Source: Blepharisma japonicum
Taxonomy: Eukaryota; Ciliophora; Heterotrichea; Heterotrichida; Blepharismidae
Direction of reading: 5' to 3'
Assembly (NCBI GenBank): GCA_949751835.1
Contig: CATKHK010000192.1
Location: forward strand, 1-21,176
Length of the DNA stretch: 21,176 nucleotides
Positions 1,575 through 21,176 of the stretch are shown here, piece by piece; within the stretch, counting starts at the first letter, position 1, and the number at the start of each line of letters is the position of its first letter. The position numbers were made by a program, and so were the translations under genes. The notes under the pieces were generated by a model that saw nothing but the letters and a program-made list of their open reading frames with translations, searched no databases and was not told the DNA's origin.

Positions 1575-4448
1575 TTACTCGTACATTCTACGACTAGAAT
1601 CTTCAGAATTATCAGATGAATAAGATATAAGGGAAGTGTTTTGCACTTCAAAATTAGGAGCTCTTCTAGTTGGACTTGTGGTTGTCGCATCTCTATCATT
1701 TGAGTCAATACATTGCTCAAAATTTAAATTTATGGATGTTGGCTTAGACTGAATAGTAGGAGAGTGAGATGCTGGGTGTGAGGAACCAGCAGGAATAGAC
1801 TCATTTAATTCTGCAGGTCTTGTATTGATAAAATCTACTGTATCAATGAATCGTTGAGATTCATCTGGTAAAAATGTAGCTCCATTTTCAGATGCTCTGA
1901 GCTGCTCAAAAGTTCTCATTCTTTCTATTACACATCTTGCTTCTTCTACATCTTGATTCATTGAGTGAATTAAATACGAATAATTTGGGTTCAGTTCTAA
2001 ATCATATCGTGTTAATGTATAATCTTTCATTTCGTCTTCAATCTCACTAAACTTCTTTGTTTCTGGATGATCTTTAAGCAGAAGTTTCCTCTTGATCTCT
2101 CTTGTTATTTTTTCAGAGAATTCAAATAGCAAAAATATAATAAAACTTATAATGGCTATTATTAAAAACACAATACCATGGTCCATAACTATTCTATCTT
2201 CAAGATCTTGAATTTTATAATCCAGATAATTTACATAAATAAATGTATCATTTTCGTTCTCAAACCTTTTTGTTCTGTCTACAAACCCTTTAGGGAAAAT
2301 GTTTGGGCATCCATAAGCATAAAGAGAAACACAAGAATGAAAGAATACACAAAGCGGCATTGCTTTAATAGCACTACTGTAGATATGATGACTATATGGT
2401 GGAGGTTTTCTATAATGCCTAAGGATTAAAAATTTATCAGTCCAATATATCACAAATAAAGCTAAAAATCCAATTATATTGAGCAGTGGAACCCCTCCTG
2501 AAAAAATAAAACAAGTAAAAATTACTGTTAAAATCATAGAAGTTCTAGCAGCTATCAAAAACACAGGACCAATAAACGCATTATGCATTTCATACTGCGT
2601 CTTATACAGCTTATTACTATTAATTCGATTTCATAATCCTCTCATATAAGACACCAAAAAGTTAAAAATAAAATGAGGTGAAACAATGTTAATGCACATC
2701 ATAATAAAAAACATTGAGCCAACCCTTAAATACCACCATTTCGAAAAATCACTAAAATTGCCTTCAACTAGCTCATCAACATTTTTTTCATCTGTATATT
2801 TAATATGGACTAAAATTGGAGCCAGAATGGTGTTAAATAGCATTGCTACAAAGATTTTGAGCATTGTGTGGGTTTGTTTAAGATTGTAACTTTTGCGTCT
2901 TTCAAAATCTGATAAAATGGTGAGAAGAAGTCTCAGCATAAAATTAGTAATCACAATGCTAAAGCAGATAACAAAGTTAATTGCAGCTGATGATAGCCGC
3001 AAATACACGTAATTCTTGCATATTGATCTAATTTTTGGTTTTTTAGCTCAATCATCTGCAGATTGCAAGCTGCACCAGCAGGCTCTTTTACTACTATTAG
3101 GGTCTGAATTGGTTTCTTCTATAATTTGATGTAAAGGCTCTTTCCCTAATTTTTCTTTATTATGGTCTAAACACTTATAAGAGTCAAGCACATTCTTAGA
3201 CCCACGTCTCATTAGAAATATTAAGGCAACAGATACACAAATCATGATAATAGTAATAGTAACTGATAAAATAATTCTTGATCTTTTTTCAAGGCGCTTT
3301 ATTTCTAGGTTTTCCCACATAATATCTGATGGCTCAGAACCTGGATACACCTTTAATTGATATTTTCCTCGAAATTTCAATCTCGAACTCTTATTATGTC
3401 TCCAGCCAAAAAATCCTTTTCTATATCTTGTAAATGCTCTAGCTCTAGATTCTTTAGTATTAAAAATAATATAAGCTCTATGCACAGGAAGCTCATTATG
3501 AAACATTTTATTGTCTGAAATTGTTATATTTTCATTAAGCTTTGAAAGTTTATTTTGAAGCTTAATTAATTTTTTATTATTTGAGTCAATTTCAAAATCG
3601 TCCCCTAAAAATATTTGTTGAGTTCTGATTTCTTTTAAAACCGTAGCTCTTTCTTTATAAAAATATAATAGGTCTCCATAAGATCTGCCTAAATAAACGT
3701 CGACTATTTCTCCAAAGCAACTAAAGTGATTTATTATTTCTTCTTTATCAATATTTTCTTTTGGAAATCCAGCAACTTCAATAGAGTAATCCGAAACTCT
3801 ATTTTCTCCAGATGTAACATCATGAATTTTTATTTTATTGGTAATAAGGATAATGATTATTCCTATAAGAAAAATTGCTGTATAAAAAGCGTCAATGATT
3901 CAAATTTCTTTATAATTTTCGTTAGCTCGGTCAAGAGTATCCTTTCTTCATTCTTCTTTTTCAGTATTATTCTTCCAGGGAAAATATTGGGTATCATTCT
4001 CTGATATTTGAGTATCTAAAAATTCATCTTTATCTCTTTCAAACCAATAAGGATTTGCTAATGTGTACCTAGACCCACTTTGGCTTTCACCATCTCCAAT
4101 AATGCTACCTGTTGAATTAGTGTAAGCAGGATAGATACTTAAGCAAGCTATTATAAAAAATAAAATTGCCATCTGTTTGATAAATCGAAAATACATCTGA
4201 AGCCCAACACCATATTTTCCAAGATTCTCTGGAGAAGTTGATCAAATGCTATATAGCTTTGGATCTGACCCATCCACCTCTTGCTTGACTAATGCGTTTT
4301 TAATCCTGAATTTTTTAGCTTCTTCTAGGCTTGGCTCGTTTTTAAGCTCTTTTAGTATCTCTTCTTCCGATATATCTCTTGAATCATCTTCACTAGCGCC
4401 TAAAACTAAAGTCGCTACAGAGGCAAATATAGCTTGCTGTGACCCCAT
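1575..4448 (-). CDS. TMEM63/OSCA/CSC1-like (DUF221) mechanosensitive cation channel, copy B
   Basis: A single frame of 957 codons runs from ATG 4446-4448 to a TAA at 1575, provided TGA is Trp; in-frame TGAs start at 4242, 3948, 3900, 3048 and 2631. Predicted order: cytosolic N-terminus; TM0 about 93-108; an extracellular loop; TM1 about 183-203; an RRM-like cytosolic domain about 205-390 ending in the family hallmark EPSDIMWENL (372-381); TM2 about 392-412; TM3-TM5 about 487-597; then the RSN1_7TM core with SGGVPLLN and YWTDKFLILRHYRKPP (about 650-680); TM8-TM9; and a cytosolic tail about 775-957 rich in Ser, Thr and Asn. Known members of this family are stretch- or osmotically gated, Ca2+-permeable channels of plasma or internal membranes; that role here is inference. 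Length is typical of the family. It sits head to tail with A and C. Without TGA=Trp it would be a six-piece pseudogene, which the frame conservation argues against. Confidence 0.9.
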
Positions 4449-6242: not shown

Positions 6243-8804
6243 TTATTTATTTTCAGATTTATTCAGCTTTTCATAAGTTTTCATTCTTCTCAGCACGATA
6301 ATTCCTTCCTCTACATCTTGATTCATCGAATCAATTAAATGCACATAATTAGGATTAAGTTCTAAATCATACCGTGTCAGTGTATATTTTTTCATTTCTT
6401 TTTCAATTTCGTTAAATTTTTTGGTTTCTTTATGGCTTTTTAATAGTAACTTTCTTTTGCACTCTTTTGTTATTTTTTCAGAAAATGAAAATAATAAAAA
6501 TACTATAAAACTTATAGTTGCTAGTATTAAAAACACAATTCCATGATCCATAGCAGCTCGGGCTCCAAGGTTACTTTCTTCATATGCAAAATATTCAACT
6601 ATTTTTTTAGGTGTAGGATAAATTGCAGTCTTTTTAATAAAGCCTTTAGGAAAAACATTTGGACATCCATAAGCATAAAGAGAAACACAAGAATGGAAGA
6701 ACACGCAAAGAGGCATTGCTTTCATAGCGCTACTATATATATGATGACTATACTGAGGAGGCTTTCTATAATGCCTGAGAATCAAAAATTTATCAGTCCA
6801 ATAAATCGTAAATAAAGCCAAAAACCCAATAACATTCAGCAAAGGTATACCTCCTGAAAAAATAAAACATGTAAAAATAACTGTCAATATCATAGATATT
6901 CTCGTCGCTAGCACAAATATTGGCCCAATAAATGCGTTATGTATTTGATATTGTGATTTATAAAACTTATAGCCGACTGCTCTTTTTCATAAACCTCTTA
7001 GATATATTACTAAAAAATTGAAAAGGAAATGAGGAGATATTATGTTTATACACATCATTATAAAAAACATTGACCCAACCCTTAAATATCACGCTTTAGA
7101 AAAATCACGAAATTGAGCTTCAACAAGTTCATCAGCATAATCTCCATCTACATATCTTAAATGTACAAGGATTGGAGCAAGAATTGTGTTAAATAGCATG
7201 GCCGCAAAGATTTTCAGCATTGTATGAGTTTGTCTAAGGTTATAACTCTTGCGTCTTTCAAATTCTGATAAAGTTGTAAGAAAAAGTCTAAGAATAAAAC
7301 TCGTAACCACAATCCCAAAACATATAAAAAAGTTAATTGCAGCCGAAGAGAGTCGCTTATATACATAATTCAAGCATATTGATCTAATTTCTGGTTTTCG
7401 AGTCCAATCTTTGATAGTCTGATGGCTACACCAGCACGATCGTTCTTTACCATGTGGATCTCATCTTGTTTCATATAATACCTCTTCTAATGATTTCTTT
7501 TTATAATCTACTTCATCCAAACACTTATAGGAATCGTATACATGCTGAGAGCCTCTTCTCACCAAAAATATGAGTCCAACAGACACACACATCATAATAA
7601 TAGTAATAGTAACCGATAAAATAATCCTTGACCTTCTTTCACAGCGTTTTAGTTCTAAATTCTCCCACATAATATCGGATGGTTCAGAACTTGAGTACAC
7701 CTTTAATTGATATTTCCCTCGAAACTTCAATTTTGAACTCTTATTATGTCTTCAGCCAAAAAATCCTTTCCTGTATCTTGTAATTGCTTTAGCTCTAGAT
7801 TCTTTAGTATTAAAAATAATATAAGCTCTATGCACAGGGAGCTCATAGTTAAATTTATCTAGGTTGGAAATAGTTATATTTTCATTAAGCTTTGAAAGTT
7901 TATTTTGAAGCTTAATTAATTTTTTATTATTTGACTCAATTTCAGAATCATCTCCTAAAAATATTTGTTGAGTTCTGATTTCTTTTAAAACCGTAGCTCT
8001 TTCTTTATAAAAATATAATAGATCTCCATAAGATCTTCCTAAATAAACGTCGACTATTTCTCCAAAGCTGCTAAAGTGACTTATTATTTCTTCTTTATCA
8101 ATATTTTCATTTGGAAATCCTGCAACTTCAATAGAGTAATCTGATACCTTACAATGCCCAAGTGAATTGTGATGGATTTTTATTTTATTTATAATAAGAA
8201 TTACAATGATTCCGACTAAAAAGATCCATGAGTAAACAGCGTCAATAATCCAAATTTCTTTATAATTTTTGAGAGCATTATCAATAGTCTCGCTCTTTCA
8301 GTTTTTATTAATCTCCCAGCCACATCTGTTCTCTGCAAACGGAAGACAAGTCGTATTTGTGATATCAATGTCTAAAAATCGATCTTTTTCTGGCTCAAAT
8401 CACCAAGGATTTGCTAATGTATATCTAGATCCGCTTTGGCTTTCATCATCTGAAATTATATTTCCTGTTGAATTGATATAAGCCGGATAAATACTTAAGA
8501 AAGCAACTATAAAAAATAGTACAGCCATTTGCTTTAAAAAAAGGAAATAAAGCTCAAGTCCAACGCCATATTTACCAAGCTCTTCTGGAGAAGTTGATCA
8601 AATGCTATATAGTTTCAGGTCTCCCTCATCAGTTTCCTGATCAACCACTGAGTTTTTCATCCTAAATTTCTTTGCTTCATCGATGTTTGACTCTTTTTTG
8701 AGCTCTTTTAGTATTTCTTTTTCATTAAGATCTCTTGAGTTTTCTTCATTGGCACCTAGCACAAGAGTTGCTACAGACGCAAATATAGCTTGTTGCGACC
8801 CCAT
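6243..8804 (-). CDS. TMEM63/OSCA/CSC1-like (DUF221) mechanosensitive cation channel, copy C (tail-less)
   Basis: One 853-codon frame runs from ATG 8802-8804 to TAA 6243, with seven in-frame TGAs read as Trp (first bases on the plus strand 8598, 8400, 8298, 7752, 7461, 7089, 6987). Architecture matches copy B: N-terminal cytosolic segment, TM0, loop, TM1, RRM-like cytosolic domain, hallmark EPSDIMWENL (about residues 374-383), TM2, TM3-TM5, then SGGIPLLN and YWTDKFLILRHYRKPP and the last membrane spans. The product stops at KLNKSENK, so it lacks the roughly 100-aa distal tail of B; all membrane segments are retained, so a working pore is plausible. One stretch in the cytosolic domain (7873-8140) is about 95% identical to B, more than neighbouring parts. 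It is 3' of D and 5' of B in a same-strand array. Channel function is inferred from the family. Confidence 0.9.
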
Positions 8805-9293: not shown

Positions 9294-12200
9294 TTATTCT
9301 TCATCAGAACTGCTTCTTTTTCTTCTGCTTTTCTTATTTTTCTTAGGCTTTTCTTCCCCACTGAAGCTAACATCCACATGTTCAGGGCTGCCTTCATCGC
9401 TCACTGACTCTGGAGCTTTATAAGGCTTATCAGAGTCACTTGACTTGCTTTCTTCATTCACTTCTTCTTTACTTACACTTGACTCTTCTGAAGGAGGCTC
9501 TACTTTCTTTGCTTTTTCATTTTTTGGTGATTTCTTTAATTTCTTTTGAGGCTTTTTATCACTTTTTTCTGGTTCTTCGCTAGTTGGCTGATGCTTTTTC
9601 TTTGATTTTTTATCTGGGACATATTTTTCCTTTTCCATATCAGAAACACTTGAATCTTCAACTAAATTGCTTGATGATGAAAAGCTTGCTTTTCTATTAT
9701 GTTTTGGAACTATTTGTGGCTTTTTCTTTTTAAACTCAACCTCTGAGCCCATATCACTGTCTACTTGATTTTCTATAGAATTTTTCTCTTGGGAAGAACT
9801 TGAGCTTACATCAACATCCACTTTTTTGCTTTTTTTCGGTGGCTTATTACTGGGGTTTGGAGTTTTCACCTTAATTTTCGGCCCAGATTTCTTATTCAGC
9901 TCAATATCTGACTTATCTGATGACGAATCTGAGCTGGAGTCTTCTTCCTTTTTCTGCTTTTCACTTGAAGAGTCTGGACTGATAGCCACTTTTTTTCTTT
10001 TTTTAGGAGACTTAAAAACAGGGGTATCTGTATATACAATAGACTGCCCATCTTTATTGAAATCTACATCAGATGAAGATTCTGAGCCTATATCGTCAGC
10101 ACTGCGCTCACTTATATTGTTATCAATCTCAGGGGTCATACCTGACCTATCAGTTTGTGATTTACTTTCTTCACGAGGCTCACCATTATTATTGTCACTT
10201 ACCTCAGCTGTCCTTTGTAAGTCTGCTCCCCTTGGAGTTTGATAAGGTGTTGTAGATCTTATATTAGGATGGTCTTTAGTAATTTCTGCAGATTCATTCA
10301 TATTTTCTATGATCAGCATATAATTAGGGTTTTTCATCAAGTTGTAAGTGGAAAGGCCTGATTTTTGGATTTCCATTTCGACTTCTTTAAAGGTCTTTTG
10401 ATCTTGGGTTTCCTCTTCTTTTCGGTTTTTGCTTCGCATCACAGCAGCGCTGACCTCATCTATGAAAAATATGAGTAGAAGCAAAATGGCGCTTGAACCT
10501 GCTAAAATTATATTGGCAATACCTGAGTCATTCTTTAACCTTTTTTCAAAGCCAGGAGTGGTTGATGTCACATACCCAGAAGACTTTGTATAAAAAGATG
10601 TAGGGAATACATCTGGGCAGCCATAGCAGACCAGCGACACTATGCAATGAATAATAATGCAAATTGGCATCAGCCTTATTGCTTGTATATAAAGATCAGC
10701 TTTATACTTAGGTGGCATCCTATAATGCCTCAAAAGCAAAAATTTATCAGTCCAATAAATCACAAAAAGAGCAGCAAAACAAATGCAGTTTAATAGTGGC
10801 ATTCCTCCAGAGTATATATAGCATGTAAACATAATTGTCAAAATTTGAGAAGTTCTTGTTGAAATCATAAACTCTGGACCTAAAAACGCATCATTAATTT
10901 CATACTGCGTAGCATAATTTTTCCATCCCCATTTCCTCTTGCATGCCCCTATAGGATACATAATAATTAAATATATAAGATGTGGCGACCCAACACAAAT
11001 AAACATTGTGATAACAAAAATTGACCCTACTTTTACATACCAGTACCTTGAAAAATCACTATACTCGCCTTCCAAAATGTACCCATTTGAAAAATCAGCT
11101 CCTCCAGCGTCTAAATTAACTAGATAAGTGATTAGGGCTGTATTTATAGTCATTGCGATAAATACTTTTAGCATAACGCGAGTCTGCTGAGAGCTGCGAC
11201 TTCTTGTTCTTTCACAGCTTGTAATTAAAATTAGCAGGGTTTTTATAAAGAAATTCACTATAATAATTCCACAGCAGCTGAAAAACTTGACTGCAGATGA
11301 CCAAGAGATAGTTTCTATATAGCTAGAACAGTAGTCGCTATAGTCTGATTTACTAATTAAATCATCCCAGCTCTGACCTTGGCACCAGCAATAGGTTTCG
11401 TCTTGTGAAGTATATTCTTCTTTAGCTTCTTTTAGAGATACACCTGTATCTACTTTTAAAGAGTCACATTTTGAATCATTAGGAAGCTCACTTTGAGCTC
11501 TTTTGACACCGTATATGAGAGATACAGAAATAATTAAAAGGATAAGGGTCAATATGACAGCTAAAAATGTTCTGAATCTGCGACTGCATTTACCAATTTC
11601 AAGATTTTCCCAGATGATATCAGATGGCTCTTCAGCGGCAAACACTTTTAGTGGGTGTGTTCTTCTAAAATATAAATCTTTTCTTTTTTTTCTTAAGCAG
11701 CTGCAGCAACATTTTGTTTGATAAGCTTTAATACAAGCTTGTTTGTCTTTTTTTGAATTAAAGGTAACATAAGCATATTTTATAGGGAGCTCATTGTGCT
11801 TTTTCACAAGCTTCTCTTTTTTGATTTTTTCATCAAATTGCTTCAAGCATAGCTTAAAGCCTTTTAATTTTTTATCCTTTTCTAAATCTTTATTAGAAAA
11901 ACGTAAAAGGGCTTCTCTATTGCAAATTTTTTTTTTGAGTATAGCTTTTCCTTGATAAAAAATTAAAAGATCATTATATCTTCTTCCTAGATAGACCTCA
12001 ATTATTTTTCCAAAATTTTTAAAATGGTCTTTTACTTCTTGCGGAGTTACTCCTTCATCTCTGGGTAGCCCTTTAACTTCTACTGAATAGTCAGAAACTC
12101 TTGCTATTTTATGACTTGTTTTGCTTATTAAAATTTTTGATTGTATAGTGTAAAGTAGTAAAGCAATAATAAATAATCCAGTATAAATTGCATCAGCTAT

Positions 12201-12680
12201 CCATGTGTCTCGATATGCGTCATCTATATCATTTTGGTCGCTTTCAGCAACAGCCACATCAGTTACATTTGAGGATATTCCTATCCTATTGGCAATAGTC
12301 AAGCCATAAGTGATTTCTGTGCCATCAGATGTAGTTATTTGGTCTCCTTGATAATTTTCGTATATTGGTCAAATGCTGATACCTCCGATGATGAAAAATA
12401 TAAGCATCATCTGCTTTAGAAATAAAAAATGAAGCTGAAGGCCAAGTCCGTACTCTCCGAAGCTACTGGAACCCATTTTCCAGATACCATACGGTTTTGG
12501 GTTATTTTCGTCATCTCGGTTTGTTATGGAATTTCTATGCCGAAAAGCCCAAGCTTTTTTTAAATCAGCTGGCTCTTGAAGCTCCTTTTCAATTGACTCA
12601 CTATCAGCATTCTTCTGAAGAGACGATCGGTCAATGTTCAAGGCTGCATTTATCAACGAATTAAAAACAGCTGCTGCCAT
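9294..12680 (-). CDS. TMEM63/OSCA/CSC1-like (DUF221) channel with long charged tail, copy D
   Basis: A frame of 1128 codons runs from ATG 12678-12680 to TAA 9294, crossing one TGA (12369-12371, Trp104). Approximate order: cytosolic N-terminus; TM0 84-103; extracellular loop; TM1 161-179; RRM-like cytosolic domain 195-350 with a Cys cluster (CCCSC); hallmark EPSDIIWENL 351-360; TM2 371-390; TM3 461-486; TM4 501-522; TM5 547-576; TM6-TM7 601-643 with SGGMPLLN and YWTDKFLLLRHYRMPP; TM8 667-687; TM9 720-740. The last about 340 residues are low-complexity Ser/Lys/Glu/Asp with many SSSD-type acidic phospho-acceptor runs and basic clusters such as KKRKK and RRKR, ending RSSSDEE. Family members are mechanically gated, Ca2+-permeable channels. 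D is the most diverged copy, uses TGA least among the full-length copies, and its tail suggests cytoskeletal or scaffold tethering or kinase control (inference). Confidence 0.9.
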
Positions 12681-13248: not shown

Positions 13249-16200
13249 TTAAGGGCTTAAGATTCCAGCGTTGTGTCTCAACACAATTAAAGCTTCAAGC
13301 ACTGGTATCTCAATCATCTTTGATATAACTCTGACCATTCTTCCAAGCCTCATCTGATCCAGCTGTAGCGTAAGGGCATGGAAATTCATATTTGTGGCTT
13401 CCAAACTTTCTATTAAAGCTTCATTGTGGTGTCTGAGTGCTGTATTGTCTTCTAGCAAGCTATGCTTATCATATCTCAGCTCATTAATTGACTCTATAAG
13501 TCTTGTCCTTTCATCTTCGAACAGTCCCACTTGTCTGCTATAAGAAGAAATCGACGAAAATCCAATAGCAAGCTGTCTTACTCTGACTTCTCTGAGCTGC
13601 AGACAAATGACTTCAGTTGCTCCATTCTTGCTAAGTTCAATGATTTCTTCTTTGGACATTTTTCCTGAAATTGGTTCTTCCATGCTGCTTCTTCCTTGTG
13701 AAGCTGTAGTCGTTATAGGGATTGATATAGAAGTATCCATAGCAGTTGTAGGTCTTTCTGGGGATGGAGTTCGGAAATTGACGCCTTCTCGCAAGTTTGG
13801 CATTACTGCGCTCATTCGGCCATCTCTTGACATATTGCTAGCACGTAACAAAGAGCTGACTGCAAGCTGCACTGATGAGCGGTTATGTATGGGTAGGGCA
13901 GTTCTATAAGTTAGAATAAGCTTAAACATAGCGAACTGCTTGAGACGTCTCTGGTATTGGTTTCCGACTCTTGATATACGCTCCCACATAAGAGTTTGTT
14001 TAGGATGCAGCTCAACTCCATGTCTGGTAATCACATATTTCCATCTCCACACTGATGTTTGGTAAGAAATACTTGTCAAATTGATCATGCTTAGCATATA
14101 TTTCTTCTTCAGTCTCAAAATTCTCATCTTTTCGTCCTGTGACCATATGCTAAGTCTTCCTCTCATCATGATTTTCGCTTTGGCTTCCATAATTCTTGAT
14201 ATCAAGTATGCTCCGTTTACTTTCTTGATCATCTTCAGTTTCAAGACTCTTTCTCTAAGTGTTTCAATGCCTCCTTTTTGCAGTCCTACAAGGTTTCTCA
14301 TGACCTTAGAAACAGTTCTTCTCTTAATCTTATTCCTGTCTATTACATTCAGCCAAGTCCTAAAGCCATTATTTATATTCCTGGAAAGGCATTTCTCTCT
14401 GAGCTTGAACAGATTTTGCAAAGCAGGGGCATATTTAGCTAGAAGTGCTCCTTTGATTTTCATGGTCTGAGCGAACCAGTGTCCTATAGCTCTTCTAGCG
14501 CCGTCTTCTGCGATTAAGTTGATCTTCCTTAAGCTTTGTATAATTCTTTGCATTTTATCATCTGTCCACATCTTGAAGGCCATACGGAGGTTAAATCTGG
14601 AGCCTTGTTGCAGTTTGGCGAATAATAAAGCTACAAGTCTATACCTGTTCACATGTTTTTCAGCGTCATTTACTACTCTCCATTTAAAGACTGCGAAACG
14701 CTTGATCTTGTTAAGGTGTTCATTAAATCTAGCTAAGGCACCTGCTACAAGTGAGCCTCCTCCTACGATTCTTAATAAGCAGTTCTTGAGGATTCGTCTT
14801 GGGATAGCATCTAAGGTCTTGCGGAGTTTTTCGCCATCAAGTTTGGTATTAATTTGGTCTTTAATTGAGTTGTGGACGTTAGATCTCAGCTTGTCAAAGG
14901 CTTCTCTTGAGCGTCTTTGAGCTCTTAACGCAAGACTGACCAGGATAAACTTGACGCGACTTGTTTTACTTACAATTCTAGACTCAGACTCTTTAAGGAC
15001 CCTTTGTGTGACTCTAAATAGTGCTGATCTTAATTTTTCAGTCTTCATACGCTCCTGTATAGCAGCTGCTTTTTTGCCTAACACATTTTCAGCCCATTTT
15101 CTTATGCTATCCTGTGGGAGTTTTTCGCATCTATAAGCTAAAGCTTTAAGCGCTGCTTTGGTCTTTTCACTGATTTGACATTTATCTCTACCAGATCTTA
15201 CTGCTTTTCTGACTGGCTTATCAAGAGCGCTCTTTAGCATGACTCCTTTGAGTTTCTTATCAGAATCCGCTACCTTTTTCTTTTGGCAAGCTAGCTTCCA
15301 TTTGTTTAAGGCATCTCTAGGCTTTTGATCATACAGAATTTGGAGGTTTCTGAAGACTGATTTAACCTTTTCAGAGTGGTCAAGGACAATAGGGTTAAAT
15401 GCAGATCTCAAAGTGCGGACTGGGATCTTGTTAAGGGCTACTCTAAGTTTTTCTCCTCTAAGCTCAGTAATGAGGCCTGGGCATATATTTTGGTAAGCAT
15501 TTCTTAAGGTTCTGGCTGGGATTTTCCTGAGGACATTCTTTAGTTGTTGACCTTTGAGTTCTCCTGTCAAGTCATCAGCTTTACCTTGGTGAGCGTTTTT
15601 AGCGAGTTTGTCAAAGGCAAGCTTAGGCATCCTGTCAGCTCTTCTGGCTAAAGCTTTGAGGGCAGCAACTAGTCTATCCTTAGTAGTTACAATGCTGCTA
15701 AAGCTGTTTCTCAATGTGCGGACTGGGATCTTAGATAAGCAATCTTTAAGTTTGGTAGCATTCAAAGAGTCTAATACTTTCTTATCTTTGACAGCTTGAT
15801 TATAGTTCTTCCATAAGTCAAATGCTTGTTTAGGCTTCTTTTGTAGAGAAATTTCAAGTCTTCTGAGTGCTCCTGCTACAGTATTTCCTTGTCCTAAGAC
15901 TCTATTAAGTGCATCTTTGGCAGTTCTCAAAGGAATCTTCTTTAGTGTATTTTCAAGACTTGTCGCTTTGACATTGTCCATCAATTTCTTTTCTCTACAA
16001 GCTTGCAAGTAGTTCTTCCACTTATCAAAAGCTTCCTTCGGTTTCTTCGTAATGGAAATTTCAAGCCTTCTAAGAGCTCCAGCGACCTTATTGTTTCCTC
16101 CAATAATTCTATCTGCTGCATCTTTGACAGTCCTTGTAGGGATTTTAGCTAGCGCGTTTCTGAGTTTTTCAGTCCTTGCATTGTCAGTTGATTTCTTTTC

Positions 16201-19200
16201 ATTGCAGTCTTTGGTGAAGATTCTCCATTTATCAAAAGCGGTCTTAGTCTTCTTTTGTAGTGCCAGCATGACCCTTCTTAAAGCTCCTTTGACTTTGTCG
16301 CCTCCTCCAATGATTCTTTCTACTGCATCTTTGGCAGTCCTTAATGGAAGTTTGGCGAGCGTTGATCTCAGTTTTTCTGATCTTAAGTTGTCAAGGACTT
16401 TCTTGGTCTTAGTGTCATTGATGAAGTCTTTCCATTTATCGAAAGCTTGTTTTGGCTTCTTATTGATGGATATTTGAAGTCTTCGGAGTGCTCCAGCTAC
16501 AGCTTTGCCTTCTCCAAAAATACGGTTATGAGCGTCCTTAAGGACACGTCTTGGAATATTGGATAAAGCGTTTCTTAGTTTTTCAGTCCTAAGCTGATCT
16601 AAGATGTTCTTTTTATTGGCTTGTTTATTGAACTGATCCCAGAGGTCAAAGGCTTCTTTAGTCTTCTTGTTAAGCGAAATCATAATTCTTCTTATAGCGC
16701 CTTTAACAATGCTGTTGTCGCCCAAAATGCGACCATATGCATCTCTCATGGTTCTCTGAGGCAGTTTTTCAAGTGCTGTCTGTAGCTTTTTAGCGTTCAA
16801 TGCATCTAGTGAGTTCTTAGTCTTGCAGTCTTGAACAAATCCTTTCCATTTATCATAAGCTTGTTTAGGTGATCTCTTCAGTGCAGAAAGAATAGTCCTT
16901 ACAGCTCCTTTCAGCTTATCGCTTTCTCCTATAACTCTTCCTATTGCATCTTTAAGGGTTCTTCGAGGAATTCTGTCGACTGCATGTTTAAGCTTCTCAG
17001 TCTTTAGATTGTCCATGATTTTCTTTTCGTTGCAGTCTCTAACGTATTTCTTCCACTTCTCGAAGGCTTCTTTTGGCTTCTTCTTAAGGTTTATGTCCAT
17101 TCTTCTGATTGCGCCTGCTAACTTATTGCCTTCTCCTAAAAGACGGCTGAGGGAGTCTCTGAGAATTCTTTGAGGAACTTTGCCAAGGGCTGTTTGAAGC
17201 TTCTTAGCATTTAGAGCGTCTAAAGCGTTTTTAGTCTTCATGTCACTAAGATAAGCTTTCCATTTCTCAAAGGCGTCTTTAGGTTTTCGTTTGAGGCTGT
17301 TAACGATGCTGCGCATGGCTCCTTTGACTTTGTCACCTTCTCCTTTGATGCGATCTGCGGCGTCTTTTAAGGTTCTTCGAGGGATACTTTGCAAAACGTT
17401 CTTAAGCTGCTGAGTTCGTAAGTTGTCAAGCATTTTCTTGGTGTTGCAGTCCTTACAGAAGTTTGCCCATTTGCTGAAGGCACCTTTGGTGGATTTCTTT
17501 AAGGTTATTTCAAGCCTTCTCAAAGTTCCTGCTAATTGGTTTCCTTGGCCTACAATTCTTGTGTAAGCGTCTCTGATAGTTCTCTGTGGAATCTTAAAGA
17601 CTAAATCTTGTAGCTTTTTAGCTTTGAGCGCGTCGAGTAAGCCATTCTTCTTACAGTCGTGGACGAAGTCTTTCCATTTTTCAAAGGCGTCTTTAGGCTT
17701 CTTTTGAAGCTGAATGAAAAGTCTGCGAAGAGCACCTCTTATTTTGTTGCCAGATCCGAGGATTCGGTCAGCTGCGTCCTTCATGGTTCGTTTAGGAATC
17801 TTTTCTAAGGCGTTTTGGAGTTTTTGGGTTCTTAAGTTGTCAAGCATATTCTTTGTACCGCAGTCTTTTGCGAACTTAGCCCATTTGTCAAAGGCCTGCT
17901 TAGGGGATCTCTTTAAGGCCATATCAAGTTTCTTTAGGGCACCTAAAACTTTGTCACCTTCTCCAACTATTCTTTGATATGTGTCTCTCAAAGTCCTTCT
18001 AGGAATGGCAAGTGCGATGTTAACTAGTTTTTGGGTTCTTACGTTGTCGAGAAGTCCTTTTGCCTTGCAGTCTTGAATATATTGCTTCCATTTATTAAAT
18101 GCATTTCGTGGCTTATTCTTTAGCTGAATTTCCATTCTGCGAAGAGCTCCTAATATCTTGCTTCCTTGACCTACAATCCTATTATGAGTATCTCTTAGAG
18201 TTCTTGGTAGAACCTTTTCTAAGGAAGTTTTGAGTTTATTAGCTTTGAGAGCATTCACAGCTTTCTTTGTTTGGCAGTCTTTAATATAGTCTTTCCACTT
18301 CTGAAGAGCATCTCTTGGCTTTCTGATCATTGCATTCATTACGTTCTTGATAGCTCCTTTGACTTTGTCGCCTCCTCCAATAATTCTTTGAGTCGCATCT
18401 TTGACTGTTCTCTTAGGTATCCTTTCCAAACAGTTCTTTAATTTCTGGCATCTGACATTATCGAACAAGTTTCTTGTCTTACAGTCTTGAATGTATTGTT
18501 TCCAGATGTTGAAGGCAACTTTTGGTTTCTTTTGAAGCTGAATGAGAATTCTTCTGACATTTCCAGCGAATTTATCTCCATCTCCTAAGACTCTTTGATA
18601 TGCGTCTTTGATTGTTCTAGCAGGAATTCTTTCTAAAGCAACTTTAAGTTTTTGAGCGTTGACAGCGTTAAGAAGGTCTCCTTGCTTGCAATTGTTAACA
18701 AAGTCTTTCCATCTCTTCATAGCTTCACTAGGCATTTCTAAATAGTGCTTGAACAGTAACCTCAAAATACCTAAAGCTCTTGTTCCATGTCTTTGCAGAA
18801 TATAGTCATAGTTGTCCTTAAGAGTTCTGATAGGAATTCTGTCAAGTGCATATCTTAGTTTTTGTGCTCTTACTGCATCTGAAAGGTTGTCGTTCTTCAC
18901 AAGATTTAAGAAAGCTTTCCATTTGATAATAGCATCTCTAGGCATCTTTTCTGCTCTAAGTGCGAAAACTTGTAGAGTCTTCTTGACTTTTTCGCTTGGC
19001 TGGCACCTATCTCTTCCTGATCTTACTTGTTTTCGTACTGGCTTTTCAAGAGCGTTCTTAAGCATGGCTCCTTTGAGTTTCTTGTTAGAATCAGCAGTCT
19101 TCTTCTTTTCACATCCAAGTTTCCATTTATTCAAGCAGTCTCTTGGTTTTTGATAGTATAAAACTGCGAGATTTCTTAAGGCAGACTTAATCTTATCAGC

Positions 19201-21176
19201 ATTGACGAGGATAATAGGGTTGAATGCAGATCTCAAAGTGCGAATAGGAATCTTGTCAAGAGCTTTTCTAAGTTTTTCTCCTTGAAGTTTGTCATTCTTG
19301 GTATCAGGAACAATTCTTCCATAAGCATCTCTTAAAGTTCTAGCTGGTATCTTTCTAAGAACATTCTTCAATTGTTGGCCTTTAAGCTCTCCTTTCAAAT
19401 TATCGGCTTGCTCCTTCAATGCATCGGTATTGGCCTTGTTTACATTCTTGGCTAACTTATCAAAAGCAACTTTAGGCATCCTTTCAGCTCTTCTAGCTAA
19501 AGCTTTGAGTGCTGCAATGAGTCTGTCTTTGGTAGCAACAATGCTATTAAAGCTGTTTCTAAGTGTTCGAACAGGAATCTTTGCTAAAGCATTATTCAAT
19601 TTGCGAGCATTCAAAGCATCTAATACTTTCTTGTCTTTAGTTGCTTTAACATAGTCTTTCCAGAGATCAAATGCTTGCTTAGGCTTCTTTTGGAGCGAAA
19701 TTTCAAGTCTTCTTAAAGCACCTGCAACGTTGTTTCCTTGGCCAATAATTCTATTAAAAGCGTCCTTTGAAGTTCTCAATGGGATCTTTCTAAGAACATC
19801 ACTGAGATTTTTAGCTCTGACATTGTCAACAAGTTTCTGTTCTTTGACATCTTGAACAAAGTCTTTCCATTTATTGAAGGCTTGCTTAGGTTTCTTGGTG
19901 ATTGAGATTTCAAGTCTTCTCAGAGCTCCAGCGACTTTATTGTTTCCTCCAAGGATCCTATCAGCAGCATCTTTAACAGTTCTTATTGGAATTCTTGCTA
20001 AAGCATTTCTGAGTTTTTCTGTGCGAGTATTATCAGTTAGTTTCTTGTCTGCGCAATCTCTGTTAAACTTATTCCACTTATCAAAGGCAGCTTTAGTCTT
20101 CTTCTGTAAAGTGAGCATAAGACGTCTTAAAGCACCTTTAACTTTGTCGCCTCCACCAATAACTCTTTCGAAAGCATCTCTTGTAGTACGCAAAGGTATT
20201 TTCGCTAAAGTGTTTCGTAGTTTCTCAGATCTCAGGTTATCCAAAACTTTCTTCGTTTTAGTGTCGTTCACGAAATCTTTCCATTTATCAAATGCTTGCT
20301 TAGGCTTCTTGTTAATTGATATCTGAAGTCTTCTGAGAGCTCCAGCAACTGCTTTGCCTTGACCAATGATTCTATTGTGAGCATCCTTCAGTGTTCGTCT
20401 AGGAATATTAACTAAAGCATTTCTTAATTTTTCAGTTCTCAGCTGATCCATAACATTCTTCTTATTGCAGTCTTTGTTGAATTTATTCCAAATATCGAAA
20501 GCTTCCCTTGATTTCTTATTAAGTGCAATCACAATTCCTCTTATAGCACTTTTAACGATATTGCTATCATTTGTAATGCGGTTATAAGCATCGCGCATAG
20601 TTCGCTGTGGAATCTTTTCGAGGGCTGTGTGCAACTTCTTAGCGTTTAATGCTACCAATGATTCTTTATCTTTAGTTCCTCTAATATAATCCTTCCATTT
20701 ATCAAATGCTTGTTTTGGTGCTTTCTTAATAGCTGAAAGTGCTGCTCTTAGAACTCCTTTAACTTTATCGCCTTCTCCTTTAACTCTTTCGGCTGCATCT
20801 TTCAAGGTTCTTCTAGGAATGTTCTTCATTGCTGCTTTAAGCTGTTGAGTTCTGACGTTGTCCATAAGTTTCTTTTCTTTGACAGCTCTGAGATAGTCTT
20901 TCCACTTATCAAATGCTTGTTTCGGCTTTTTCTTTAAGTTAATTTCAAGTCTTCTGAGGGCTCCAGCGACTTTGTTTCCTTCTCCAACAATTCTATTATG
21001 AGCATCTCTTAGGGTCCTCTGTGGAACTTTTTCAAGGGCAGTTTGTAGTTTCTTAGCATTTAATGCATCTAATGTCTTCTTTTTCTTGCAATCTTCTACA
21101 AAGTCCTTCCATTTTTGCAATGCATCTCGAGGCTTTCTCTTAAGTGCCAAAATAGCTGTTCGTATTGCTCCTTTGA
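13249..21176 (-). CDS. Giant 69-aa-repeat protein, Sfi1/giant spasmin-binding-like contractile scaffold (5' end outside window)
   Basis: The frame is open to the right edge. Bases 21151-21174 continue it with KGAIRTAI, so no start is visible and the protein exceeds 2640 residues. About the first 2150 visible residues are roughly 31 units, mostly 69 aa. Each unit has a W half (KKPKQAFDKWKDF, then LDNLRxxKLRxALxKIP) and a second half (RTLKDAxxRIxGxGxKVxGALRRL). The F-x-x-W-K core after a Leu-rich helix matches the end of the Sfi1 centrin-binding consensus. Residues about 2150-2420 are degenerate W-containing helices, about 2430-2495 is Ser/Thr/Pro-rich (TPSPERP), and about 2545-2605 is a predicted coiled coil. 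In yeast Sfi1, Paramecium PtCenBP1 and Spirostomum giant spasmin-binding proteins, such arrays bind centrin or spasmin and contract with Ca2+. Here every Trp (about 35) is TGG and none TGA. The protein is strongly basic. Ligand binding is inferred, and no centrin or spasmin gene is in the window. Confidence 0.8.
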   Translation of the reverse strand, partial: KGAIRTAILALKRKPRDALQKWKDFVEDCKKKKTLDALNAKKLQTALEKVPQRTLRDAHNRIVGEGNKVAGALRRLEINLKKKPKQAFDKWKDYLRAVKEKKLMDNVRTQQLKAAMKNIPRRTLKDAAERVKGEGDKVKGVLRAALSAIKKAPKQAFDKWKDYIRGTKDKESLVALNAKKLHTALEKIPQRTMRDAYNRITNDSNIVKSAIRGIVIALNKKSREAFDIWNKFNKDCNKKNVMDQLRTEKLRNALVNIPRRTLKDAHNRIIGQGKAVAGALRRLQISINKKPKQAFDKWKDFVNDTKTKKVLDNLRSEKLRNTLAKIPLRTTRDAFERVIGGGDKVKGALRRLMLTLQKKTKAAFDKWNKFNRDCADKKLTDNTRTEKLRNALARIPIRTVKDAADRILGGNNKVAGALRRLEISITKKPKQAFNKWKDFVQDVKEQKLVDNVRAKNLSDVLRKIPLRTSKDAFNRIIGQGNNVAGALRRLEISLQKKPKQAFDLWKDYVKATKDKKVLDALNARKLNNALAKIPVRTLRNSFNSIVATKDRLIAALKALARRAERMPKVAFDKLAKNVNKANTDALKEQADNLKGELKGQQLKNVLRKIPARTLRDAYGRIVPDTKNDKLQGEKLRKALDKIPIRTLRSAFNPIILVNADKIKSALRNLAVLYYQKPRDCLNKWKLGCEKKKTADSNKKLKGAMLKNALEKPVRKQVRSGRDRCQPSEKVKKTLQVFALRAEKMPRDAIIKWKAFLNLVKNDNLSDAVRAQKLRYALDRIPIRTLKDNYDYILQRHGTRALGILRLLFKHYLEMPSEAMKRWKDFVNNCKQGDLLNAVNAQKLKVALERIPARTIKDAYQRVLGDGDKFAGNVRRILIQLQKKPKVAFNIWKQYIQDCKTRNLFDNVRCQKLKNCLERIPKRTVKDATQRIIGGGDKVKGAIKNVMNAMIRKPRDALQKWKDYIKDCQTKKAVNALKANKLKTSLEKVLPRTLRDTHNRIVGQGSKILGALRRMEIQLKNKPRNAFNKWKQYIQDCKAKGLLDNVRTQKLVNIALAIPRRTLRDTYQRIVGEGDKVLGALKKLDMALKRSPKQAFDKWAKFAKDCGTKNMLDNLRTQKLQNALEKIPKRTMKDAADRILGSGNKIRGALRRLFIQLQKKPKDAFEKWKDFVHDCKKNGLLDALKAKKLQDLVFKIPQRTIRDAYTRIVGQGNQLAGTLRRLEITLKKSTKGAFSKWANFCKDCNTKKMLDNLRTQQLKNVLQSIPRRTLKDAADRIKGEGDKVKGAMRSIVNSLKRKPKDAFEKWKAYLSDMKTKNALDALNAKKLQTALGKVPQRILRDSLSRLLGEGNKLAGAIRRMDINLKKKPKEAFEKWKKYVRDCNEKKIMDNLKTEKLKHAVDRIPRRTLKDAIGRVIGESDKLKGAVRTILSALKRSPKQAYDKWKGFVQDCKTKNSLDALNAKKLQTALEKLPQRTMRDAYGRILGDNSIVKGAIRRIMISLNKKTKEAFDLWDQFNKQANKKNILDQLRTEKLRNALSNIPRRVLKDAHNRIFGEGKAVAGALRRLQISINKKPKQAFDKWKDFINDTKTKKVLDNLRSEKLRSTLAKLPLRTAKDAVERIIGGGDKVKGALRRVMLALQKKTKTAFDKWRIFTKDCNEKKSTDNARTEKLRNALAKIPTRTVKDAADRIIGGNNKVAGALRRLEISITKKPKEAFDKWKNYLQACREKKLMDNVKATSLENTLKKIPLRTAKDALNRVLGQGNTVAGALRRLEISLQKKPKQAFDLWKNYNQAVKDKKVLDSLNATKLKDCLSKIPVRTLRNSFSSIVTTKDRLVAALKALARRADRMPKLAFDKLAKNAHQGKADDLTGELKGQQLKNVLRKIPARTLRNAYQNICPGLITELRGEKLRVALNKIPVRTLRSAFNPIVLDHSEKVKSVFRNLQILYDQKPRDALNKWKLACQKKKVADSDKKLKGVMLKSALDKPVRKAVRSGRDKCQISEKTKAALKALAYRCEKLPQDSIRKWAENVLGKKAAAIQERMKTEKLRSALFRVTQRVLKESESRIVSKTSRVKFILVSLALRAQRRSREAFDKLRSNVHNSIKDQINTKLDGEKLRKTLDAIPRRILKNCLLRIVGGGSLVAGALARFNEHLNKIKRFAVFKWRVVNDAEKHVNRYRLVALLFAKLQQGSRFNLRMAFKMWTDDKMQRIIQSLRKINLIAEDGARRAIGHWFAQTMKIKGALLAKYAPALQNLFKLREKCLSRNINNGFRTWLNVIDRNKIKRRTVSKVMRNLVGLQKGGIETLRERVLKLKMIKKVNGAYLISRIMEAKAKIMMRGRLSIWSQDEKMRILRLKKKYMLSMINLTSISYQTSVWRWKYVITRHGVELHPKQTLMWERISRVGNQYQRRLKQFAMFKLILTYRTALPIHNRSSVQLAVSSLLRASNMSRDGRMSAVMPNLREGVNFRTPSPERPTTAMDTSISIPITTTASQGRSSMEEPISGKMSKEEIIELSKNGATEVICLQLREVRVRQLAIGFSSISSYSRQVGLFEDERTRLIESINELRYDKHSLLEDNTALRHHNEALIESLEATNMNFHALTLQLDQMRLGRMVRVISKMIEIPVLEALIVLRHNAGILSP
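15100..17330 (-). repeat. Higher-order duplicated block, copy 2
   Basis: This is the partner of 18950-21176 at an offset of 3849 bp (3825 bp left of the indel). The left limit is approximate, where the units after VRSGRDKCQ stop corresponding. Units at about 17330-18950 lie between the two copies and do not pair in this window. Confidence 0.8.
18950..21176 (-). repeat. Higher-order duplicated block, copy 1 (extends past window edge)
   Basis: Unit order and unit-specific variants here match 15100-17330 one for one: for example DQLRTEKLRNAL, then NDTKTKKVLDNLRSEKLR, then the Trp-less RMPK(V/L)AFDKLAKN unit, then VRSGRD(R/K)CQ. Anchors at 20261/16412 and 19501/15652 both give an offset of 3849 bp (1283 codons). 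After a small indel near 19420 the offset is 3825 bp. The right end is not seen. Confidence 0.85.

Follow-up and report, generated by a model that had tools for sequence, protein, structure and literature searches.

What does the giant repeat gene at the end of a Blepharisma japonicum contig encode, and could its product form the backbone of a contractile fibre? Giant scaffolds that hold many EF-hand proteins are thought to underlie the Ca2+-driven contraction of ciliates, a process that makes no direct use of ATP; to our knowledge few of these scaffolds are known in sequence. PtCenBP1, a giant many-site centrin-binding scaffold of the Paramecium infraciliary lattice, has been proposed as the backbone of a contractile centrin network; GSBP1 and GSBP2 of Spirostomum are giant spasmin-binding repeat scaffolds proposed for EF-hand partners. 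The window, meaning the whole stretch of 21,176 nucleotides that we analysed, is contig C192 in full, one of 224 in a genome of 45.2 Mb, and the contig end cuts the gene. An original prediction, made from the letters alone, had proposed a filament with many binding sites for centrin or spasmin. Our analysis gives moderate support to a reading in which one gene of at least 5009 residues encodes a linear scaffold that carries centrin-type EF-hand proteins within a cortical fibre.

The prediction had guessed at Blepharisma or a relative, in agreement with the genetic code and telomeres of the assembly. Neighbouring genes on C192 contain in-frame TGA and end in TAA (UGA = Trp). A three-fold pattern of the telomere repeat CCCTAACA gave 168 matches, compared to 0 for the reversed control, and several of those listed lie less than 100 bases from a contig start. 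For Blepharisma stoltei, passages of PMC9942806 describe UGA read as Trp, CCCTAACA telomeres and a genome of 41 Mb in 64 contigs. The UGA = Trp genes on C192 and the ciliate telomeres in the assembly rule out bacterial contamination. The neighbours are three related-looking membrane protein genes in tandem on the minus strand (1575-4448, 6243-8804 and 9294-12680), each containing TGA codons in frame. The first and second match the 10TM (OSCA/TMEM63-type) cytosolic domain at 30.8 and 29.4 bits (cut-off 27); for the third, only RRM_1 scored above its own cut-off. If these are Ca2+ or osmotic-stress channels, their adjacency to the giant gene may be due to chance. Rfam and tRNA scans of the window gave 0 and 0 matches.

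The C-terminal part of the giant gene occupies positions 13249 to 21176 of the minus strand. Its frame runs from 21174 to 13249 and encodes 2641 residues followed by TAA at 13249-13251, with no stop before the contig end, which bears out the predicted frame of more than 2640 residues. Residues 1-2141 (14752-21174, minus strand) form an array with a period of 69 residues; identity autocorrelation is 0.301 at this lag and 0.324 at twice the lag (138 residues), and did not exceed 0.097 in 200 shuffles. A 69-column HMM, seeded with 22 of the protein's own units and thresholded at E<1e-4, detects 32 stretches across the array, 28 of which cover at least 60 of the 69 positions, and the best stretch in 50 shuffled copies of the protein had an E value of 0.11. 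These two controls reject a chance repeat. Since 2141/69 is about 31, the predicted number of units was also right. Tandem Repeats Finder reported 3 short arrays in the window, and the 207-base unit is not among them.

The array is interrupted twice, at equivalent places of a super-repeat. One irregular stretch (residues 553-730; 18985-19518, minus strand) holds one degenerate unit and two partial ones, and the other (residues 1836-2005; 15160-15669, minus strand) is its counterpart. Next to them lie the two super-repeat copies, at residues 208-552 (19519-20553) and 1491-1835 (15670-16704), both on the minus strand and offset by 1283 residues. The copies share 79% protein identity with a dS of 2.2, at which synonymous sites are near saturation, and a dN of only 0.14, so the protein sequence has been under purifying selection. 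Near residue 2141 the array stops, and the final 500 residues (2142-2641; 13252-14751, minus strand) form a different tail that contains 8 Trp and was found at one locus in the genome.

The window does not hold the N-terminus of this gene; the start is probably on contig C25. In a search of the 45-Mb genome in which only the best candidates were scored, the only match to the array besides the window was the end of C25. There, an open frame of 2382 residues (C25:477594-484740) has its own N-terminus, contains 11 full units and runs off the contig end. The two contigs break off within the array at the same unit phase. The N-terminal 935 residues of the C25 frame were found complete at one locus in the genome; partial relatives of the first 70-155 residues occur at three further loci, and C25 itself has one internal match. 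The C25 and window pieces correlate in codon usage at r 0.951, and none of their 68 Trp codons is TGA, compared to 13 of 40 in the three neighbour genes. Given the shared phase, the single complete copy of each end module, and the agreement in codon usage and TGA avoidance, we infer that C25 and C192 probably carry one gene of at least 5009 residues, calculated as 2382 less the 14 before the first Met plus 2641, with the gap between the contigs not counted. The predicted giant size thus stands, and the gene is probably larger than the window showed. With 32 stretches in the window and, if this is one gene, 11 full units on C25, the protein has the scale that characterizes PtCenBP1 and the GSBPs.

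Alternatively, C25 and C192 could hold separate, paralogous genes that were both truncated in the assembly. Trp is absent from the last six units of C25, the last C25 unit shares just 48-57% DNA identity with window units one to three, and the contigs are bridged by no sequence, all of which favor two genes. However, register and codon usage agree between the contigs, both end modules have a single complete copy, and among the best candidates scored the array matched no further contig; two paralogues therefore need two more missing ends, and we consider them improbable. The last two complete C25 units share 94% DNA identity, and a recent duplication like theirs can break an assembly.

The N-terminal module of the giant gene also occurs elsewhere. 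Just upstream on C25, two tandem frames (C25:473456-474358 and C25:475581-476390; locus L007) match its first 70-110 residues at 78% and 90% identity and continue into a different C-terminal part; judged by sequence, the module has been shuffled. A 243-residue frame on another contig (C11:37305-37769 plus flanks; L066) carries the same module at 35% identity together with two A-F-x-x-W-like motifs, ends in a Cys-rich sequence (CCLCCCC) and is possibly a short membrane-anchored relative.

We aligned 35 units (alignment A1), comprising 24 of the 28 near-full units in the window and all 11 from C25, with the consensus KGALRRLEISLKKKPKQAFDKWKDFVKDCKEKKLLDNLRAKKLKNALEKIPRRTLKDAANRILGEGDKV. Residues A18, L43 and R53 are invariant, while P51, T54, D57 and R61 reach 90% conservation or more. 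The prediction had each unit ending in A-F-x-K-W-K. A motif of this kind does recur, with 10 exact copies and 28 of the form A[FLYVIM]xxW, but not in every unit: position 22 is Trp in 28 of the 35 and Leu in the other 7, all of them on C25. The strongest conservation is found in the stretch P-x-R-T-x-x-D-A-x-x-R in the second half of the unit, half B, rather than in FxxWK. Position 29 is Cys in 21 of the 35 units.

The two unequal halves foreseen for the unit could be aligned with each other. L7..P15 pairs with L43..P51, and beyond an insertion of 4 residues the stretch 16-22 pairs with 56-62, which places the core [KR][DQE]A[FL]x[KR]W of half A opposite [KR]DAxxRI of half B. The half-to-half score was reached by 2 of 500 column permutations and that of the 7-residue core by 0 of 5000; a separate hhalign comparison of the halves was weak (P 0.019, probability 2.4%). 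Halves A and B thus look related, differing by an insertion of one turn. An AlphaFold model of two units, built from 27 of 29 two-unit windows (alignment A6, in which two overlapping neighbours of the query were left out), has helices at 2-30 and 33-62 in unit one and at 68-99 and 103-131 across unit two, with low confidence (pLDDT 63.3, pTM 0.23). A four-unit model from 7 sequences was worse (pLDDT 41.5), and its alignment (A5) contains shifts, with 345 columns for 276-residue rows. From these models we take the helix pattern only and not the packing: each unit is predicted to form two helices of about 30 residues. Together with the related halves, this pattern agrees with the proposal of a helical two-part unit. 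Hydrophobic moments, calculated for six stretches of one unit, indicate an amphipathic helix A at 100 degrees (p 0.0006; its second part, p 0.0034). The full length of helix B is not amphipathic (p 0.27), although the portion that follows its proline is (p 0.0074); three of the six p values were 0.097, 0.27 and 0.75.

Searches of Pfam, NCBIfam and the PDB gave the unit no convincing family, Sfi1 included. In Pfam, DnaG_DnaB_bind (2.1e-06, below its cut-off) and GCR1_C (23.1 bits, cut-off 23) were rejected as sums of weak repeat matches in which 0 single stretches pass, and among the 35 single units no family matched more than 3. The best NCBIfam entry, PriX (2.2e-05; 24.7 bits, cut-off 50), was likewise a sum of weak repeat matches. 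Sequence matches in the PDB were dismissed as chance, with best E values of 0.13 for the protein, 0.12 for the unit profile and 0.05 for a profile of the Trp in the flanks. One scan each of viral and prokaryote contigs confirmed 0 of 8 and 0 of 17 pattern matches as relatives, and a Blepharisma scaffold of this kind is not among the literature matches listed.

Two sequence features of the Sfi1 family, to which the prediction had compared the protein, are absent from it. The Sfi1 consensus given in passages of PMC5112337 and PMC9406199 is AX7LLX3[FL]X2W[KR]. This strict motif occurs 0 times in the C25 and window pieces, as does LL-x3-[FL]-x2-W with L, I, V or M as the second L, and the Pfam Sfi1 profile, PF08457, matched neither C25 nor C192 in a genome search, nor the protein or its units by hmmscan. 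Elsewhere in the genome, one match to this profile exceeds the cut-off (28.4 bits; C113:18500-23500, L059), and there is a weak match on C5. The gene at L059 is separate from the giant gene and has an 803-residue frame with UGA = Trp.

The charge of the protein and part of its Trp cores favor a centrin scaffold. Window units carry a net charge of +5 to +13 each (about +10) and the total is +366, with unit charges measured on 24 window units and 10 of the 11 C25 units. Centrin targets are described in parts of PMC8622359 and PMC9406199 as having an 8-4-1 hydrophobic triad around Trp. In the N-terminal part of C25, a bulky hydrophobic residue stands at -3 for 15 of 19 Trp (5.6 expected), is combined with K/R at +1 for 9 (1.1 expected) and with a hydrophobic residue at -7 for 7 (1.4 expected), and none of these three values was reached in 2000 shuffles. 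The spacers on C25 have the -3 hydrophobic for 9 of 9 Trp (2.8 expected). These enrichments agree with the centrin-target triad, as far as sequence can indicate. In the tail of the window piece the enrichment is marginal, at 6 of 8 Trp for the -3 hydrophobic (2.9 expected, p 0.033) and 2 with K/R at +1 as well (0.5 expected, p 0.087). Intervals between Trp in the N-terminal part of C25, counted with one Trp before the first Met, fall at 34-45 residues in 8 of 19 cases and at 69-70 in 2. An alignment around Trp (A7) holds 26 of 27 windows, several of its rows being near copies of each other; the Trp left out are C25 144, 186, 245, 247, 292 and 853 and tail 2376, 2378 and 2397.

Within the array, the fit to the triad is mixed. 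Read in reverse, positions 4 and 1 are present in 28 of the 35 units, but all 35 have Pro, Thr or Ser 7 residues before the Trp, and the triad is therefore complete in none. The forward triad is complete in 22 of 35 when Cys is counted as hydrophobic, and in half B, with Ile replacing Trp, a triad is found in 11 of 35. By our reading of the alignment, Trp-centred binding would not account for the conservation of P-x-R-T-x-x-D-A-x-x-R in half B.

Candidate partners are encoded in the same genome. From an EF-hand search in which 150 of 1191 candidates were scored, 30 were reported as loci and 16 of these 30 were parsed, together with 11 genome regions (nine counted centrins, one calmodulin cluster and one Sfi1 match), we count at least nine centrin loci: L050-L055, on C31, C13, C46, C24, C6 and C104, and L056-L058. 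The centrin-like proteins L022-L024 and L042 are left out of the nine. The nine proteins have 168-171 residues and share 90.5-99.4% identity, with 76.1-89.5% identity in coding DNA. Six loci encode an identical 157-residue core while differing at 69% of synonymous sites on average, which points to an old, multi-copy family under extreme purifying selection. Two of the nine, for which we measured net charge, are at -18 and -16. One centrin compared with the PDB matched caltractin best (203.6 bits) and other centrins at 178-191 bits; its calmodulin matches were a calmodulin-calcineurin fusion at 190.9 bits and other entries at no more than 146.4. The calmodulin cluster itself (L049; C81:177000-185000) contains one 149-residue calmodulin in two identical copies, plus two divergent calmodulins. 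Codon usage in the pieces of the array gene correlates with that of the centrin genes at r 0.878 and 0.911, compared to 0.781 and 0.797 for the channel-like neighbours, and hints at high expression of the giant gene. Basal bodies need centrins too, and the centrin genes are therefore not specific evidence for a fibre scaffold.

Set beside known systems, the protein combines shared and distinct features. Like members of the Sfi1 family (yeast and human SFI1, Tetrahymena Sfr and Toxoplasma TgSFI1), it is a long basic array, predicted with low confidence to be helical, with hydrophobic-x-x-W-[KR] cores; centrin genes are present in the same genome, and a relaxed 8-4-1 pattern is enriched in the N-terminal part on C25. 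Unlike them, it has a regular 69-residue unit in two parts, Pro at the third position of the triad in the array and the conserved P-x-R-T-x-x-D-A-x-x-R. It is probably an Sfi1-like scaffold, although the strict motif and Pfam profile of the Sfi1 family are absent. By description, it has in common with PtCenBP1 that both are giant ciliate proteins with many repeated sites. GSBP1 and GSBP2, again by description, are giant repeat scaffolds from the same class, the heterotrichs, and the Blepharisma protein could be a GSBP orthologue. In Paramecium, passages of PMC5483020 describe a contractile lattice of Sfi1/centrin filaments, with 36 ICL centrins in 10 subfamilies, and PMC12661445 describes, in part, protist myonemes with giant scaffolds that have hundreds of sites.

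How might such a scaffold work? The prediction of a centrin or spasmin scaffold is partly supported by the basic array, the centrins, the Trp core on C25 and the two-part unit, and runs counter to the results for the strict Sfi1 motif and Pfam. We propose that each unit consists of two related helices of about 30 residues whose cores, [KR]-[DQE]-A-[hydrophobic]-x-[KR]-[W or I], follow each other at distances of 40 and 29 residues. The basic rod would be lined with acidic centrins, one or two per unit. Loading of the centrins with Ca2+ would then alter the length or packing of the row, and the fibre would shorten.

We put forward a more elaborate version very tentatively, in which a strong Trp site alternates with a weaker, Ca2+-gated Ile site along a chain of at least 5009 residues, giving an EF-hand scaffold with two registers. 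The unit would have arisen by duplication of an older site about 35 residues long, the second copy gaining a helical turn and carrying Ile at the position of the first copy's Trp. Ca2+ would recruit or clamp a centrin at every second position and fold the chain at Gly-rich hinges. If true, this would be a contraction design unlike the single continuous helix of Sfi1.

The same features could instead belong to a basic helical repeat that binds microtubules, for example those of the cortical Km fibres, or another acidic polymer, its Trp serving helix packing. The net charge of about +10 per unit is suited to this, the Sfi1 motif is missing and the most conserved positions lie outside FxxWK. In the related Stentor, according to parts of PMC8511388, Km fibres lie directly above the myoneme, which itself contains centrin-like proteins. 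However, the 8-4-1-like Trp core is enriched beyond the array too, and no microtubule-binding family is among the Pfam and NCBIfam matches listed; we regard microtubule binding as unlikely.

A second possibility leaves the partner in place and removes the movement: the protein could hold centrin in basal-body or cortical structural fibres that do not contract. Blepharisma is only weakly contractile, which counts in favor of a static scaffold. Sfi1-type proteins serve basal bodies and centrosomes too (parts of PMC5112337 and PMC8622359), and some binding between centrins and their targets is independent of Ca2+ (parts of PMC8622359 and PMC9406199). The great length of the protein, the number of its units and the many identical copies of centrin indirectly suggest bulk fibres instead, and we judge a static role to be improbable.

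We return to the proposed centrin scaffold of a contractile cortical fibre. Its short regular unit and a candidate partner centrin, encoded by the same genome, make the 69-residue piece suited to production and titration. If binding occurs, its dependence on Ca2+ and how many centrins each unit holds could be measured directly, and the question of one site or two could be answered. Built as a row of docking sites for centrins, the giant protein would be a good candidate for the backbone of Ca2+-driven fibres in Blepharisma.
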